The notes under the pieces were generated by a model, which was given only the letters and a program-made list of their open reading frames with translations, searched no databases and was not told where the DNA came from. A DNA stretch of 64,000 bases from an uncultured Bacteroidaceae bacterium (GTDB taxonomy: Bacteria; Bacteroidota; Bacteroidia; Bacteroidales; Bacteroidaceae). The stretch is from contig CAJOHO010000002.1 in NCBI GenBank assembly GCA_905234555.1, forward strand, positions 113,499-177,498, written 5' to 3'. A program made the position numbers and the translations under genes. Below, piece by piece: positions 323 through 58,276 of the stretch; position 1 is the first letter of the stretch, and every line of letters begins with the position of its first letter.

Positions 323-865
323 TTACCACGTCTCTTTCAGGCCTTCCAAGTATCCTTGTGCAAACTTATAGCCTGTGCGGGCAGACTTTTTCAGCCAATC
401 TAAACCTTTCTTTTTATCTATGAATTGTTCAGTAACATATTTTTCGTCTTCAATTTCTTCATCAAATTCGGATCCACCATAGAAGATCCCATTAAAACCA
501 ACATAGTAGAGCCCCAAATCACACATACAGTAGCCACTACCCATTTCAGCTCCTTTTCTGTCCCAGTAGATTTGTTCCAAGAGGTCGAAATCGGTTCCGT
601 CTCCATACCCATACATATAGGCAACCATTTCAATGGCACTCACATTGTTCATCTGGGCAGCTTTGAGGAACCACTTGAAAGCTTCTCCATGATCCTTGGC
701 AACACCCTTGCCGTCTAAGTAGCCTTTTCCTACATTATACATAGCAGTAGGGTCACCCAGCTGAGCCAATTCATGATTGCGGGCAAATGTCTCTTTGTCA
801 CTCGTCTGTGCCGTCGCCGTCAGCGAAACTGACAGAACCAATAAAGATAAAATGTATCGTTTCAT
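323..865 (-). CDS. Sel1-repeat secreted protein
   Basis: ORF; start MKRYILSLLVLSVSLTATAQ (signal peptide); Sel1-like GDPTAMYNVGKGYLDGKGVAKDHGEAFKWFLKAA. Confidence 0.75.
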   Translation of the reverse strand: MKRYILSLLVLSVSLTATAQTSDKETFARNHELAQLGDPTAMYNVGKGYLDGKGVAKDHGEAFKWFLKAAQMNNVSAIEMVAYMYGYGDGTDFDLLEQIYWDRKGAEMGSGYCMCDLGLYYVGFNGIFYGGSEFDEEIEDEKYVTEQFIDKKKGLDWLKKSARTGYKFAQGYLEGLKETW

Positions 866-1127
866 AATCGTATGATTTTTTTTGTTGAACATTAGTTGTA
901 AGTTGGTTGACAATTAGTCATCATTAATTTTGAATAAATCGCTTCCGCTCGACAATACTCAAGTAAACTTGGCATTGTTCTCACTTAATCGCGATTTTGA
1001 CGCTGCAAAGTTAGGTACTTTTCAACCCATTTTCCAAGGTTTTTCCCTAATAACTCGCGGAATTATCCTATTTTCAGACGAAAATCCCTATCATTCAGCC
1101 TCTTTTGCAAACTCTACTTCATGTCTT

Positions 1128-1522
1128 TCTTAGCATCCCATCCACATTGTCTTAGTTCTCAATCCGCATTATCTTAGCTCTCCATCCACATTTTCTTAGC
1201 ATCCTTTCCGCATTTTGTTAACTCAAAATCTCATTATTCTTCGCTCAAATGAAATTTTTAAGTACTTATAAGAAAATTTCCAAGTACTTAGAAATAAATT
1301 TTCAAGTACTTAAAAAAATATTTCCAAGTACTTAGAAAAAAATTTCCAAGTACTTGGAATTTTCACAACTCTTAGCTTATATGAAATTTTGTGTTCGCTT
1401 TGAGAACTTTGAGAGTTTAGTCTTGATGTTGGTAGAGTTCGCTTTGGAAGCTTTTCGTGTTCAGTTTATGGAGGTCCGCAGTTCAGTATTTCTGTTTTAG
1501 AGTTCTGTTTTAGGGCCTGTGG
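1128..1522. repeat. Degenerate 22-bp-period intergenic array, about 18 units (TCTTAG / AAGTACTT / GTTCnG boxes)
   Basis: Boxes at 1128,1150,1172,1194,1216,1238,1260,1282,1304,1326,1348,1370,1392,1414,1436,1458,1480 (then 1501), exactly 22 bp apart. Confidence 0.85.
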
Positions 1523-1642: not shown

Positions 1643-1650
1643 TATCTTTG
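1643..1650 (+). promoter_or_regulatory. Bacteroidetes-type -7 promoter element (TATCTTTG)
   Basis: TAnnTTTG about 50 bp upstream of the 1701 ORF. Confidence 0.5.
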
Positions 1651-1700: not shown

Positions 1701-2222
1701 ATGAAAAAAGGTATGAAGAAAGCTTTGCTGACACTCGCTGTGTTGGCAGCTCCGTTTGCCTTACAGGCACAGACAAAGTTCCACGATGTTGAGGTGCACG
1801 AAGCATCGGGACCCGTAAAGAAGATTGAAGGAAGCCAGATGGGCCAGAAGCAGATCATCAATTTCACGCAGGACGGAAAGATGCAGCAGGACGGCGTCAC
1901 TGACATGAAGTATGATGAGAACGGATACTTGCAGTCTGCCACGATGACGATGAACGACATGTCTCTTTCCTCTACATATCAGTGGGAGAACGGCCAGTTC
2001 AAAGGTCAGAGTGTAAACATCATGGGCCAGTCGATGGTGAACACCTTGAAGCGTGACGACAAAGGTGCTATCATTGGTGCTTCGATGGATATGGGTGGTC
2101 AGAAAATGGATATGGACTACAAAGACATCAAGTACGATGCAAAGGGTAACTGGATCAGCCGCAAGATTTCTGTGATGGGACAGGAAATTGAGCAGACCAG
2201 AACCATTGAGTATTACGAATAA
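1701..2222 (+). CDS. Secreted hypothetical protein
   Basis: ORF with signal peptide MKKGMKKALLTLAVLAAPFALQAQ. Confidence 0.7.
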   Translation: MKKGMKKALLTLAVLAAPFALQAQTKFHDVEVHEASGPVKKIEGSQMGQKQIINFTQDGKMQQDGVTDMKYDENGYLQSATMTMNDMSLSSTYQWENGQFKGQSVNIMGQSMVNTLKRDDKGAIIGASMDMGGQKMDMDYKDIKYDAKGNWISRKISVMGQEIEQTRTIEYYE

Positions 2223-6216: not shown

Positions 6217-9200
6217 TTATTTAATTTTATAGAACATAGCGTAGAGCACAGGGATGAAGATGAGTGTGATGAGGGTTCCGACGAAGAGACCACCCATGAT
6301 GGTAACTGCCAAAGAACCGAACATCGCATCAGGAATCAGCGGAATCATACCAAGAATAGTGGTGAGCGAAGCCATCATCACAGGACGCAGACGGCTCTTC
6401 GAACTGCGGATGAGGGCAAGGCGTGGACGCATACCGCTTTCAATCTCGAGCGTTATTTCGTCCATGAGCACAATGCCGTTCTTGATCATCATACCAATCA
6501 GACCCAGCACACCCACAATGGCGACAAAGCCGAAGGGCTTGCCTGTGAGCAGGACTGTAGGAATCACACCGACGAGGATGAGAGGGATGCAGCAGAAGAT
6601 GATGGCTGGTTTCTTGTAATCCTTGAAGAGCATGAGCAGGATAACCACCATGAGGATGATGGCGATGGGGAAGCCTTTGAACAGGTAGCGCATACTCTGG
6701 TCGCTAGCTTTCTTCTCTCCTTCCCACGAGAGGCTGTAACCGGCAGGAAGCGGAATCTTCTCAATCTCTTCAGCAATCGCCTGGCGTGCGTCTTCTGTGC
6801 CAACGCCTGGAACAGGTGAACATTGCACACGCTGGGTACGCTGTCCGTTGTCGCGCATCACGACGGGTTCCTCCCAACGGATGTCGATGCTGCGAGCCAC
6901 TTGCTTGAGTGGGGTAGTGGAAACCAGCGTGCTGATGAGTTCGTCCTTGTTCAGCGTTCCTGTCAGCAGTTGCTGGATGGTGGAGCGGTTGAGCACTTTG
7001 TTGACATTGGGCAGCATACCGAATACAGCTACATTGTCCAGACGTTCGATGTCGTTGCCTTCGTCGTCCGTACACTTCAGGTAGATGCTTTCAGGATGAA
7101 TGCCGTCGTAGAAAGTGCCGATGGGAATACCGCCTGTGTATGCCATGATGGAAGTGGCAACTTCGCTACGGCTCAGTCCGCTGGTGCGTGCAGCAGCCTG
7201 GTCATAGTCGATGGTGAGCGTAGGAACTTGCGGCTCCCAGTCGGTTGTAGGCAGATAGACTTTGTTGCTGGCATTGACGATGGTAAGTGCTGAGTCGCAG
7301 AGACGGTGCAGCACTTCGGGGTCTGGTCCGTGGAAGCAGGCTTCGATAGGATATTTCTTGAACATCAGGTTGTAGCGCTTCAGCTTGATGTAAGCATCAG
7401 GGTAGCGTTTGTTCAGTTCTTCCTGAATGTCGTCGATGCTGTTCACCAGATTCTTGGGTGAATCGAAGTCGATGATGAGTTCTCCATAGGAGAGAGAAGG
7501 AGTAGCGATGCTGCGGACAAGATTGTAACGGCTGGGTGTACCTCCGACGCTGGTGGTGATGTGCGTCACTTCCTTGCGCGTCTTGAGATAATCGCTGATT
7601 TCCTTTAAGTCTTTCTCTACTTGTGTGTAGTTGGTTCCTTCAGGCAGTTTATACTCCATGTAGAGCTGGTCGTATTCCATATCAGGGAAGAACGCCTGAT
7701 TGAGGAAACGATAACCGAAGGCACTGGCTCCCAGCAGTACGAGGGCAATGATGATCATGAGGATTCGGTAGCGCAGACCGAAACGCAGCACACGCTCCAG
7801 CACGGTATAGCTCCATCCGCGATACATCACGCTTGACTCGCCGTTCTCTCCTTTCTCTACAGTGGGGTGCAGCATTCGGTCAGCCATGAGGGGAACGTGT
7901 ACCAAAGCCAGAATCCAGGAAAGCAGCAGAGATACTGCCATCACGATGAAGAGGTCGCGAACATAGACTCCAGCTGTATCTGGACTGAGGAAAATGGGCC
8001 AGAATGCCAGGATGGCGATGAGTGTGGCACCCAGCAGCGGCAATGCTGTCTTTTTGCCGATGTTGGTAAGGGCTTCCTTGCGGGGCTTGCCCATCTTAAG
8101 ATCCACCAACACACCATCGACAATCACGATGGCGTTATCCACCAGCATTCCCATTGCGAGGATGAAAGAGGCAAGGCTCACGCGCTGAAGCGTTCCGTTG
8201 TAGAAGTTCAGCACGAGGAGTGAACCGAAGACGATGGTGAGAAGGCTCATACCGATGATGACACCCGACTTGAATCCCATTGTGAAGATGAGGACAACAA
8301 CCACAATGAGTACAGATTCCAGCAAGTTGATGAGGAAGGTGCTGAGTGCGTTATCCACGCGTTCGGGCTGGAAGAACACTTTGTGGAACTCTACGCCTAA
8401 AGGCATTTCCTGTTTCAGTTCATCAATCTTACTCTCCACCTTCTTACCCACTTGGGTGATGTCCTTGTCGGCTACGCAGGAAATGGAGATTCCCAAAGCG
8501 TGTTCGCCGTCGTAACTCATCTCATTGCGTGTGGGGTCGGCATAGCCTTCATAGACGCGGGCGATGTCGCAGATGCGAAGTTGCTCGTCGTTATGTCCCT
8601 GAATCAGCATTTGGGCAATATCGTCCACTTCCTTGAAACGGTCGTTCACGGTGACGCGAATTCGGTTGTTGCCGTTATCGTAATAGCCCGAGTAAGTGGT
8701 TTTGTTCTGGTTGTTCAGGGTCTGGATGACTTCTGTGGGCATCACGCCTAAGTTCGCCATCTTGTCTTGACTCATCTCGATGTAGATACATTCGGTTCGC
8801 TTACCGTAGATTTCTATACGCGACACACCTTCGATTTCAGCCACATTGCGTTTTACCAGTTCTGCATAATCAGACATTTCGCGGTCGGACAATCCGTCGC
8901 CAGTCAGCGCATAGAACATACCGTACACATCGCCGAAGTCGTCTTTGACAATGGGCGTGCTGGCTCCTGCCGGCAGACCGGATGCACCATTGGTTACCTT
9001 ACGGCGAAGCATATCCCACTGCTGTTCCACGTCATCATCGGAGATGGTGGTCTTCAGTTCAACGGTGATGAGGCTCAGGTCTGCCATCGACTGGCTTTGC
9101 ACATTATCCACAGACGACATCTCGCGGATACTCTTTTCCAGCTTGTCTGATACTTCCAACTCAACCTCGTGAGCTGAAGCACCAGGATAGGTTGTCACCA

Positions 9201-10487: not shown

Positions 10488-10655
10488 ATTTCTATTTGTA
10501 TCGTTGAAGAGTGAAAAGCCATTGATGGCTAACTTGTTTAGAATCGGGTGCAAAGTTACGGCTAATTTATGAAATGAGCAAATAATTATGTGTGCAGAGT
10601 TGTCCTTTTTGTCCGATTTAAATAAAATTGGCTATTTTTGCCCAAAAACAAAAAA

Positions 10656-10687
10656 GGCTATCCCTTTACTCACGTAGAAGGATAGCC
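10656..10687 (-). terminator. Intrinsic terminator (GGCTATCC...GGATAGCC, U-tract on minus strand)
   Basis: 8-bp stem followed by CCTTTTTTG on the minus strand after galE. Confidence 0.75.
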
Positions 10688-10746
10688 CAACACAAACACA
10701 AAATAAAACACGACAAAACTACGTAAAATAACGTAGTGTGGGTTGA

Positions 10747-11787
10747 TTATTGGATTCCGTCCGCACGGAGTTTCTCTTGCCACTTCCATGCTGAGCGGAG
10801 TACATCGTCAATTTTAGCTTCGGCTTTCCAACCGAGCACCTTATTTGCTTTATCTACATTGCCCCATACTTTCTCGATATCGCCTTCGCGACGAGGAGCA
10901 AATTCCCAGTTGAGCTTTACGCCTGTGGCTTTCTCGAAACCTTCTACCACTTCCAGCGTGCTGAGTCCGCGACCTGTTCCGATATTGAATACTTCTACAG
11001 GGTCGGAGTCTTCAGTCTCGAGTACGCGTTCCATTGCCTTTACGTGAGCCTTTGCCAGATCCACTACATAAATGTAGTCACGGATGCAAGTACCGTCTTC
11101 GGTGTTGTAGTCGTTACCAAAGATTTTCAGCTGCTTACGGATACCAATGGCTGTCTGGGTAACAAATGGAATGAGGTTCATAGGTACACCGTTAGGCAGT
11201 TCGCCGATGAAAGCTGTGGGGTGTGCACCGATGGGGTTGAAATAGCGGAGGATAATGCTCTTGATAGGAGCACCGCTATGGATATAGTCTTGAATGATTT
11301 CTTCGTTAATTTGCTTGGTGTTTCCGTAGGGCGAAAGTGCCTTCTGGATAGGAGCTTCTTCTGTTACGGGCAGATTCTCCTTGGAGGGCTGTCCGTAAAC
11401 GGTGCAAGATGAAGAGAAGATAATGCCTTTCACGTTATACTTAGGCATCAGTTCCAGCAGGTTAATCAGCGAGTTGAGGTTGTTGCGGTAGTAGAGCAGA
11501 GGCTTTTCTACAGATTCGCCAACAGCCTTGCTGGCTGCAAAGTGGATGATGCCGCTGATATCAGGATATTTAGCAAACACACCTTCCAACGCTGCAAAGT
11601 CACAGCAATCCACCTGCTCGAAGGCAGGACGGATACCAGTAATCTTCTCAATGCCGTCAACAACGCTGGCACTTGAGTTAGACAAATTATCAATGATGAC
11701 TACTTTGTAGCCTGCTTGCTGGAGTTCAACTGTTGTGTGTGATCCGATAAAACCGGTTCCACCTGTGACAAGTACTGTCTCTTTCAT
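10747..11787 (-). CDS. galE: UDP-glucose 4-epimerase
   Basis: ORF 346 aa; TGGTGFIGSHT, FSSSCTVYG, YGNTKQINEEI motifs. Confidence 0.93.
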   Translation of the reverse strand: MKETVLVTGGTGFIGSHTTVELQQAGYKVVIIDNLSNSSASVVDGIEKITGIRPAFEQVDCCDFAALEGVFAKYPDISGIIHFAASKAVGESVEKPLLYYRNNLNSLINLLELMPKYNVKGIIFSSSCTVYGQPSKENLPVTEEAPIQKALSPYGNTKQINEEIIQDYIHSGAPIKSIILRYFNPIGAHPTAFIGELPNGVPMNLIPFVTQTAIGIRKQLKIFGNDYNTEDGTCIRDYIYVVDLAKAHVKAMERVLETEDSDPVEVFNIGTGRGLSTLEVVEGFEKATGVKLNWEFAPRREGDIEKVWGNVDKANKVLGWKAEAKIDDVLRSAWKWQEKLRADGIQ

Positions 11788-18859: not shown

Positions 18860-18874
18860 TTAGCGAAAATTCAA

Positions 18875-19057
18875 GCGTGCACGGTTAATATTTTGTGCAC
18901 GCTCTGTTGAGATTTTGAGCGTGCACGAACGGGTGGTCAGAGCACGCTCAAAATTTTGTTCAAGCACGCTCAAAATTTCGTTCAAGCACGCTTGAATGGT
19001 GGCTCATGTTAACACGAATTTCCGAAAGCATTAACATAAATTTTTGAGCTTGTTAAC
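18875..19057. repeat. 22-bp-period array, 9 units (GCGTGC/GCACGC then GTTAAC boxes); family 1, copy A
   Basis: Boxes at 18875,18897,18919,18942,18964,18986,19008,19030,19052; near-identical copy at 57965-58243. Confidence 0.88.
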
Positions 19058-19113
19058 AGGGGGAAGGGGATAAATGATGATGAAAAACAATGATCAGAAA
19101 AATATTTTTTCAT

Positions 19114-19536
19114 CAAGGGTACACTAATTTTAAGTTATTCTGCTGTTTTTCTGAAAGATAAGCCTCAAAAGGGTACACTTAGGGTACACTAAAGGTACAC
19201 TAAAAAGGGGGTAAGGGTACACTTAGGGTACACTACTTTTGACTTATTTTCACCATTCCCTGTACTTTTTTGCTGATCTTTATACCTTTTTTCATCAAAT
19301 AATTGGTGTTTCGGAAATAGTTGAATCTTCTCGTGTAATTGACAAAACCACAACCTTCTCCCATTAGAAAAAAAGGAACAGAAAAGCAAAAAAAGTCATA
19401 AAAAAGCAAAAAAACGGTCAAAAATAGTGTACCCTAAGTGTACCCTTACCCCTGATTTGGTGTACCCTAAGTGTACCCTTTTGGGGTTTAAATCTCTGGT
19501 TGCCAACAATTTGAACAAAAATTAGTGTACCCTTGA
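19114..19536. mobile_element. MITE-like inverted-repeat element built of 11-bp GGGTACACT iterons
   Basis: 19-bp TIRs TCAAGGGTACACTAATTTT / AAAATTAGTGTACCCTTGA; internal about 70-bp arms with 11-bp-spaced iterons; no counterpart in the paralogous locus at 58.25 kb. Confidence 0.6.
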
Positions 19537-23101: not shown

Positions 23102-23235
23102 GTTAAGTGATTTGTGTTTTTCGCTTAACAAATTTTGCGGAATTTGTTAAGTCTGAATCCGAAAATACTTAACAAAAATGAAATAATTTGTTAAGTGATT
23201 CCACTTAATTTGTTAAGTGTTTCCGAATTTTGTTG
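23102..23235. repeat. 22-bp-period array, 6 units (GTTAAG/CTTAAC boxes); family 2, copy A
   Basis: Boxes at 23102,23124,23146,23168,23190,23212; near-identical copy at 60939-61070. Confidence 0.88.
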
Positions 23236-52112: not shown

Positions 52113-52208
52113 ATTTCTTAAGTCTTTGTTATCTTTTTCTAAGTTTCCTAGTTTTCCTAGTTTTTCTAGTTTTCCTAGTTTTCCTAGTCTTTCCTATTAT
52201 TCCTTATT

Positions 52209-57964: not shown

Positions 57965-58243
57965 GTTAACTCTGGCGAAAAATTCGTGCGTGCATGGTTG
58001 AGTTTTTACTCTTCCTCTGTCACTCAGCATAGCTCAAACAAGTTTTGCTCTGCCTTCGCTGCTCCATCGGTTTACATTTTGAGCACGCTCTGTTGAAATT
58101 TTGAGCGTGCACGAGTGGGTGGTCAGAGCACGCTTGAAATTTTGTTCAAGCACGCTCAAAATTTCGTTCAAGCACGCTTGAATTGCGCTGCGTGTTAACA
58201 CGAATTTCCGAAAGCATTAACATAAAATCTTGAGCTTGTTAAC
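57965..58243. repeat. 22-bp-period array family 1, copy B, interrupted by a GGCATAGCTCAAAC-type dispersed repeat
   Basis: Boxes at 57965,57988, then 58083,58105,58128,58150,58172,58194,58216,58238. Confidence 0.88.
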
Positions 58244-58276
58244 AGGGGGGTAGATAGTAAAGAAAGATTCTGATGA

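Follow-up and report, generated by a model that had tools for sequence, protein, structure and literature searches.

Intergenic palindrome arrays with a 22-bp pitch in an uncultured Bacteroidaceae bacterium and its relatives

Between two divergent genes of an uncultured Bacteroidaceae bacterium, a row of short boxes recurs every 22 bp while the sequence of the boxes changes. Why would the spacing be kept where the repeated word is not? An earlier note, made from the sequence alone, had described the row as a unit word that drifts in blocks with its phase kept, and had taken this as pointing to a phased protein-binding array, or else to curved DNA, and knew of no described element like it. We followed these claims through the window (the whole 64,000-nucleotide stretch that was analysed), through G000, the genome from which the window comes, and through its relatives.

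A phased array between two divergent genes

The window array separates the two genes and their two promoter-like sites, which are laid out as follows.

323..913, minus strand: flanking gene for a secreted Sel1-repeat protein (Pfam PF08238), with a probable start near 865
1006..1013, minus strand: TAACTTTG, promoter-like site for the leftward Sel1-repeat gene
1121..1252, no strand: left flank, six in-register units with words at 1128, 1150, 1172, 1194, 1216 and 1238
1253..1362, no strand: core, five 22-bp units, each with the dyad AAGTACTT
1363..1516, no strand: right flank, six in-register words at 1370, 1392, 1414, 1436, 1458 and 1480
1643..1650, plus strand: TATCTTTG, promoter-like site for the rightward gene, with the array outside it
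1701..2222, plus strand: flanking gene for a 173-aa secreted protein with relatives in two species of the genus

Both promoter-like sites rest only on a match to the -7 promoter consensus, which in Bacteroidota is TAnnTTTG. A Pfam search with the 173-aa protein returned no family.

In the core, AAGTACTT starts at 1260, 1282, 1304, 1326 and 1348, an exact 22-bp pitch, and the dyads carry near-palindromic arms (AATTTCC-AAGTACTT-GGAAATT). The words of the left flank are TCTTAGC (four times), TGTTAAC and TCTTCGC, and those of the right flank are CTTAGC, GTTCGC, GTTTAG, GTTCGC, GTTCAG and GTTCAG; a seventh right-flank box, at about 1501, lies about 1 bp out of register. The box positions in the earlier note were thus correct, save that its last box is one base off.

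Identity at lag 22 over 1128-1522 is 0.563, against 0.282 +/- 0.024 in 1000 dinucleotide-preserving shuffles. None of the 1000 shuffles matched this value at lag 22, and none of 300 did so at any lag from 4 to 59. The claimed excess over shuffled DNA therefore held, and the absence of excess that would have refuted the note was not observed. Taken by itself, the left flank reaches 0.65 (0/1000 shuffles). The right flank reaches only 0.41 and is weak in isolation, since 3/1000 shuffles attain this identity, and 24/300 when every lag is allowed. When the array is removed from the window's intergenic DNA, the strongest lag is still 22, and the window holds further arrays in the same pitch.

18868..19066, no strand: second phased array, of AGCGTGC/GTGCACGC units, then AGCACGCT, then TGTTAACA-type units
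23102..23233, no strand: weaker phased array of GTTAAGT/CTTAAC units with alternating orientation and 22-bp pitch (chain at G000:C2:136599)
58076..58251, no strand: third phased array, with AGCACGCT at 58127, 58149 and 58171

The second array has three AGCACGCT words at 18941, 18963 and 18985, after which come three TGTTAACA-type units; the 22-bp register holds throughout. Positions 18888-19063 and 58074-58250 are near-identical intergenic copies of about 175 bp, each of eight 22-bp units and 39 kb apart, and are therefore evidence for recent whole-array copying.

Other repeats occur in the window. At 19116-19226 and 19426-19486, short AGGGTACACT repeats, partly spaced by 11 bp, occur together with an inverted set (AGTGTACCCT) about 200 bp away, beside the second phased array; the two sets look like an inverted-repeat element or an operator pair. 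At 52134-52204, the 9-bp sequence TTTCCTAGT is repeated in tandem about seven times, mostly in intergenic DNA, and bears no relation to the 22-bp register.

Arrays across the genome and the genus

G000 (2.49 Mb in 67 contigs, 81% complete) holds 12 dispersed AAGTACTT arrays of 3-6 words each (mode 5), as well as arrays of other words. Neighbouring AAGTACTT words, with starts allowed to lie 12-42 bp apart, form 43 pairs, of which 41 are at 22 bp, one at 21 and one at 23. Pairs of AGCACGCT are likewise at 22 bp in 22/23 cases, and the AAGTACTT cores of separate loci are 74-94% alike in block order. The register extends to unlike words, because pairs of them (GTTAAC, GTTCGC, GCGTGC and others), counted over 483 kb of G000, also peak at 22, 44, 66 and 88 bp (18, 14, 17 and 14 pairs, respectively, against 0.8 per other distance). 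For the same reason, the description of a word that drifts in blocks while phase is kept proved right.

The flanks of the 12 AAGTACTT arrays, with the cores excised, give a lag-22 z of 12 (11 excluding the window), which makes the right-flank register convincing once pooled, and 56 of 59 flank words keep exactly to the phase of their core. When the 24 flanks are pooled, in-register words carry 10.0, 9.0, 7.4, 5.1, 2.8, 1.4, 0.9 and 0.7 bits of information at units 1-8, of which units 7-8 are background; the flank words thus fade symmetrically over about five units. Such a graded, symmetric profile is what a complex that nucleates and spreads would leave, an inference made without binding data.

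Most sampled species of the genus carry many short intergenic 22-bp palindrome arrays, and the possible refutation that relatives would lack them failed, as sister species have them. Random stretches from 12 sister species contained 24 intergenic arrays of period 22 and no more than three for any other period from 10 bp upward. Across 20 other genera of the family we found 14 arrays in total, five with period 22 and four with period 44 (alternating units), and 79 kb examined from five other families contained no arrays. Counts rest on 0.45-0.79 Mb per well-sampled species; in two such relatives the density of 22-bp arrays is 79-191 per Mb, with other repeat lengths nearly absent. Word-free detection in 0.77 Mb of G007 returned 150 arrays, 149 of them intergenic; this is some 190 per Mb, where control lags yield 2 per Mb. 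Sixty of the 150 fall outside every named word class, and on a protein-binding reading the presence of several unrelated words in one genome requires several proteins or very loose recognition.

The words vary by species and are mostly dyads: GAAGGCCTTC in G007, AAGTGCTT/AAGCACTT in G008, GAGCGCTC in G010, GGGGAcGTACTC in both G004 and G002, and CAAACAATATTGTTTG in another genus. Neighbouring GAAGGCCTTC words in G007 are 22 bp apart in 78/79 cases, and the 12-bp spacers between them comprise 74 distinct sequences among 78. Word and pitch are thus preserved in G007 arrays, and the spacer sequence is free. Distances between G008 words, with 21-23 bp permitted, are 22 bp in 95/98. Core size goes with the species, at three words in 31/37 G007 arrays and four in 25/33 G008 arrays. 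The G007 flanks are symmetric and phased, with GCGC-centred, GAGTGCGCTC-like words at units 2 and 3 on both sides.

These data also bear on two alternatives. Curved DNA failed as a shared property, as G+C-rich arrays of relatives (GAAGGCCTTC, with spacers such as GTGTGGTTTCGG) hold the 22-bp pitch without A-tracts. The view that the row does not reflect recent duplication held in part: recent copying is plain for some units and for whole arrays, and one G010 array is a perfect 22-bp tandem repeat (TTTATTTCAACCGCAGACGAAA, four times), but duplication alone is insufficient because words in register have unrelated sequence.

Real 22-bp rows were also found in Bacteroides merdavium, Parabacteroides, Bacteroidaceae RGIG9197, Prevotellaceae MAGs and one locus of Segatella copri iA622. 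The AAGTACTT word is not widely dispersed in the six genomes searched among these carriers, and most single matches to exact AAGTACTT pairs in named genomes are at about chance level (an estimated 60 or so in 257 Gb). The rows in Bacteroides merdavium (sampled stretch 7000-7150) and Parabacteroides sp. include AGTACT-centred ones; as these are named Bacteroidales outside the genus, the pitch may predate it. Separately, stretches of G002, G006 and G009 contain intergenic arrays of period 7 (lags 14, 21 and 28; 10 in 468 kb), the second commonest repeat class in the genus and seemingly independent of the 22-bp class.

Gene calls trained genome by genome place the arrays in intergenic DNA in 37/37, 35/35 and 16/16 cases, and in 72/73 of a larger G007 sample. 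A crude ORF count had put 22/39 G007 arrays within ORFs, an artefact of spurious ORFs in G+C-rich DNA. Convergent, tandem and divergent gene regions all carry arrays. In G008, those between tandem genes lie close to the upstream stop codon, and those between divergent genes lie mid-region and clear of both promoters; 15/35 are upstream of both genes.

Arrays are also regularly spaced along the chromosome. Compared with a random choice of intergenic regions, G007 has no gaps shorter than 3.5 kb (0/28 against 30% expected, P<0.0003), with a mean gap of 8.7 kb. G008 shows the same trend with less force. Its CV is 0.62 where 0.91 is expected (P=0.0045); applying a 150-bp cut-off leaves the CV at 0.62, against 0.85 expected (P=0.018), but the short-gap fractions then lose their significance. 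Orthologous gene sides share arrays between species in six cases against 2.25 expected (P=0.014). Because this sharing is only slightly above chance, sites appear to turn over, no single site seems essential, and we rejected the idea of conserved positions.

A docking model and its candidate binders

We think it likely that the arrays, as a class found throughout the genome, are docking rows in helical phase for an architectural protein that binds cooperatively as a dimer; binding, cooperativity and the architectural role are inferred. What the analysis shows is how the arrays are built, that their register is exact and their core number fixed, that they lie between genes at regular intervals with species-specific words, and that their arms do not covary. 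The proposal that pitch is conserved rather than sequence, and that this points to a phased protein-binding array, is thereby supported well beyond the window locus, albeit without binding data.

According to this model, dimers of a sequence-specific DNA-binding protein would sit every 22 bp on the same face of the DNA, in cooperative contact with one another. The complex would nucleate on a core of 3-5 strong dyads, whose number and word depend on the species, and would extend from there about five units outward on each side over in-register words of declining strength, so that roughly 240-330 bp would be covered. The complex would then bend, wrap, bridge or insulate the chromosome. We favor architecture over control of one regulon because the arrays lie between transcription units, are evenly spaced and have no shared neighbours. 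The turnover of sites between species, the variety of words within one genome and the recent copying of some arrays weigh against the model.

In G007, G000 and G008 alike, the positions of the two arms beside the word are essentially independent of each other. In G007, for example where the left arm has A or G and the right arm T or C, the two are paired in 0.42 of cases against 0.46 expected; G008 has mixed small deviations, and G000 a slight excess at one position (0.64 against 0.50). This lack of covariation makes selected hairpins or cruciforms unlikely. Half-sites that vary independently at a fixed pitch are what a DNA-binding dimer would leave, although this too is inferred and not backed by binding data.

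Which protein might bind? HU proteins usually bind DNA with little sequence specificity. The HU-HIG proteins have an HU domain with added parts and are expanded in the genus of G000. One G000 array sits just upstream of an HU-HIG gene and, on the contigs examined, 5/7 strong HU-HIG genes have an array no more than 600 bp away, where 0.97 would be expected (P=0.0004). One of these hits had suggested the proximity test in the first place, which makes the result partly post hoc; without that case the count is 4/6. The G000 HU-HIG gene at C16:88206-88568 has an array beside it. A further neighbouring pair occurs at G010:C113 (gene 10532-10888, array 11056-11128). In G002 and G004, which have many HU-HIG genes, none was found beside the single array word searched there.

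Strong matches to PF18291 are present in G000, G001, G002, G004, G006, G007, G008, G010 and G011, which include all array-rich species, and only weaker, HU-domain-only matches in G003, G005, G009, G012 and eight other families. The four genomes of the latter group together have one 22-bp array in 148 kb, against 25-191 per Mb in well-sampled carriers, a comparison that rests on small samples and does not control for kinship. HU-HIG or HU-like matches number 20 in G004, 11 in G011 and 10 each in G000 and G002, and 1-4 in eight other families of the order. HU-HIG proteins are thus a possible binder and our best candidate, a lead for which there are no binding data. By analogy, Lrp/AsnC proteins offer a mechanistic model and are a weaker candidate. 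AsnC-domain genes number 1-3 in every genome of the genus and do not single out array carriers, because in control genomes they are also common in unrelated bacteria and archaea; nothing ties them to the arrays.

Rival readings, known systems and significance

The rival that survives best, which we still consider unlikely, is a selfish dispersed repeat like a REP/BIME or MITE, in which a transposase spreads a palindrome, tandem amplification builds the row and target immunity spaces the copies. The similarity of AAGTACTT cores at different G000 loci (74-94%) and the near-identical 18888-19063 and 58074-58250 copies favor it, the arrays are dispersed, intergenic, palindromic and species-specific like REPs, and target immunity could yield even spacing. 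Against it, the transposase family PF01797 (Y1_Tnp/RAYT), present in 22/61 genomes of the family, has no match in the 81% complete G000 at E<=0.001. Column profiles of 55 G007 and 25 G008 arrays show only phased words outside the core and no conserved ends, spacers are nearly all distinct while words and pitch are exact, unlike in a decaying mobile element, and the phased flank words of unrelated sequence belong to no copied element.

A mechanistic ruler seems similarly improbable. Here the footprint of a replication or repair enzyme duplicates DNA in 22-nt steps and the copies then diverge, with no binding platform. Perfect 22-bp tandem copies such as the G010 repeat, and the many unrelated G007 words that all have period 22, speak for it. 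However, the words are dyads that are retained while spacers randomise, core copy number is fixed by species, flank information drops symmetrically and the arrays are evenly spaced.

Much less likely is an RNA element, that is, rows of transcribed hairpins acting as terminators, mRNA stabilisers or structured RNA. The core does fold well as RNA (-32 kcal/mol, z -8), and G008 arrays in tandem pairs closely follow stop codons. Strong folding is uninformative, though, because palindromic DNA folds well by construction; the arms vary essentially independently, a row of hairpins has no need of an exact pitch, and many arrays, including that of the window, lie upstream of both divergent genes and outside transcripts. 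An Rfam search found no family at the gathering score, only sub-threshold microRNA-like matches to the palindromes.

We give as little credence to ordinary operators of a many-target regulator, for instance of the Lrp/AsnC type with dyad rows two turns apart. For this reading, the Lrp-type BarR of Sulfolobus occupies 4-5 sites spaced by two helical turns and wraps the DNA (PMC10201364), and all genomes of the genus have AsnC-domain genes. Yet arrays occur in all gene orientations and avoid promoters, their positions turn over between species, and AsnC genes fail to discriminate carriers. A comparison of array-neighbour genes (Sel1, sugar kinase, OTCase, OmpA, TPR, HU-HIG, AMP-binding, TonB receptor, sigma factor, PBP, Wzc-like and others) found no shared function, and we rejected operators of a single regulon on these unrelated neighbours.

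We also rejected a minisatellite or VNTR (74 distinct spacers among 78; core number fixed at three in 31/37 and four in 25/33 arrays), CRISPR (which has identical repeats of about 25-40 bp and unique spacers of about 30 bp at one or few loci, whereas the arrays have 8-10 bp words and 12-14 bp spacers dispersed genome-wide) and a phage origin (viral contigs lack the G007 word pair, and a AAGTACTT triple was found there once).

Known systems resemble the arrays in part. In the Lrp/AsnC-type rows of FL11, AsnC and BarR, dyad centres are about two helical turns apart and the DNA is wrapped on an octamer (PMC10201364, PMC2995911), a geometry that the 22-bp pitch meets. Those rows belong to single promoters or regulons, whereas the arrays number tens to hundreds at gene boundaries; they are also set apart by an exact pitch, a core of fixed size, graded flanks, words that are specific to the species and the lack of a demonstrated Lrp link. 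REP/BIME/REPIN elements share intergenic, palindromic, dispersed and species-specific character; REPs, however, are hairpins of 20-40 bp associated with RAYT transposases, and they lack a fixed helical pitch, a fixed copy number and unrelated words in register. The BrickBuilt MITE of Porphyromonas gingivalis consists of 23-nt intergenic tandem repeats at 19 loci, with 1 to 23 copies per locus (PMC4596501). Its Bacteroidales host and intergenic repeats of similar unit length are reminiscent of the arrays, but its leader, tail, terminal inverted repeats, 23-nt unit and variable copy number have no counterpart in them.

The matS/MatP, SBS/SlmA and NBS/Noc systems have tens of dispersed, dimer-bound palindromic sites per chromosome. 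These are single sites and not phased rows, their words are conserved across related genera, and they are limited to macrodomains or depleted near the terminus. Plasmid iterons (R6K, P1, RK2) are initiator-binding repeats with a pitch of about 22 bp and cooperative binding; they form one array at a replication origin, in contrast to the chromosomal, dispersed arrays with different words described here. In the open-access literature that we searched, we found no element of this kind. We judge the element itself to be new, a point that the earlier note had left to be checked, without excluding a description elsewhere; its presumed mode of binding has known analogues.

The docking model can be taken further, to an undescribed bacterial chromatin system. 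A dimeric protein, perhaps HU-HIG, would nucleate on 3-5 species-specific dyads, spread in 22-bp steps and form evenly spaced posts, about 9-12 kb apart, at transcription-unit boundaries; as part of the same joint reading, the recognition word would change fast between sister species while the geometry stays fixed. We hold this bolder version only tentatively and think it less likely than not.

The lag-22 register of intergenic DNA is itself a simple, sequence-independent search criterion. If the model is true, chromosomes would be marked about every 10 kb by rows of binding sites whose geometry is conserved and whose words vary by species. A DNA-binding specificity and hundreds of its sites would be co-evolving quickly, and the arrays would provide a testable handle on chromosome organisation in Bacteroidota, which are abundant gut bacteria.
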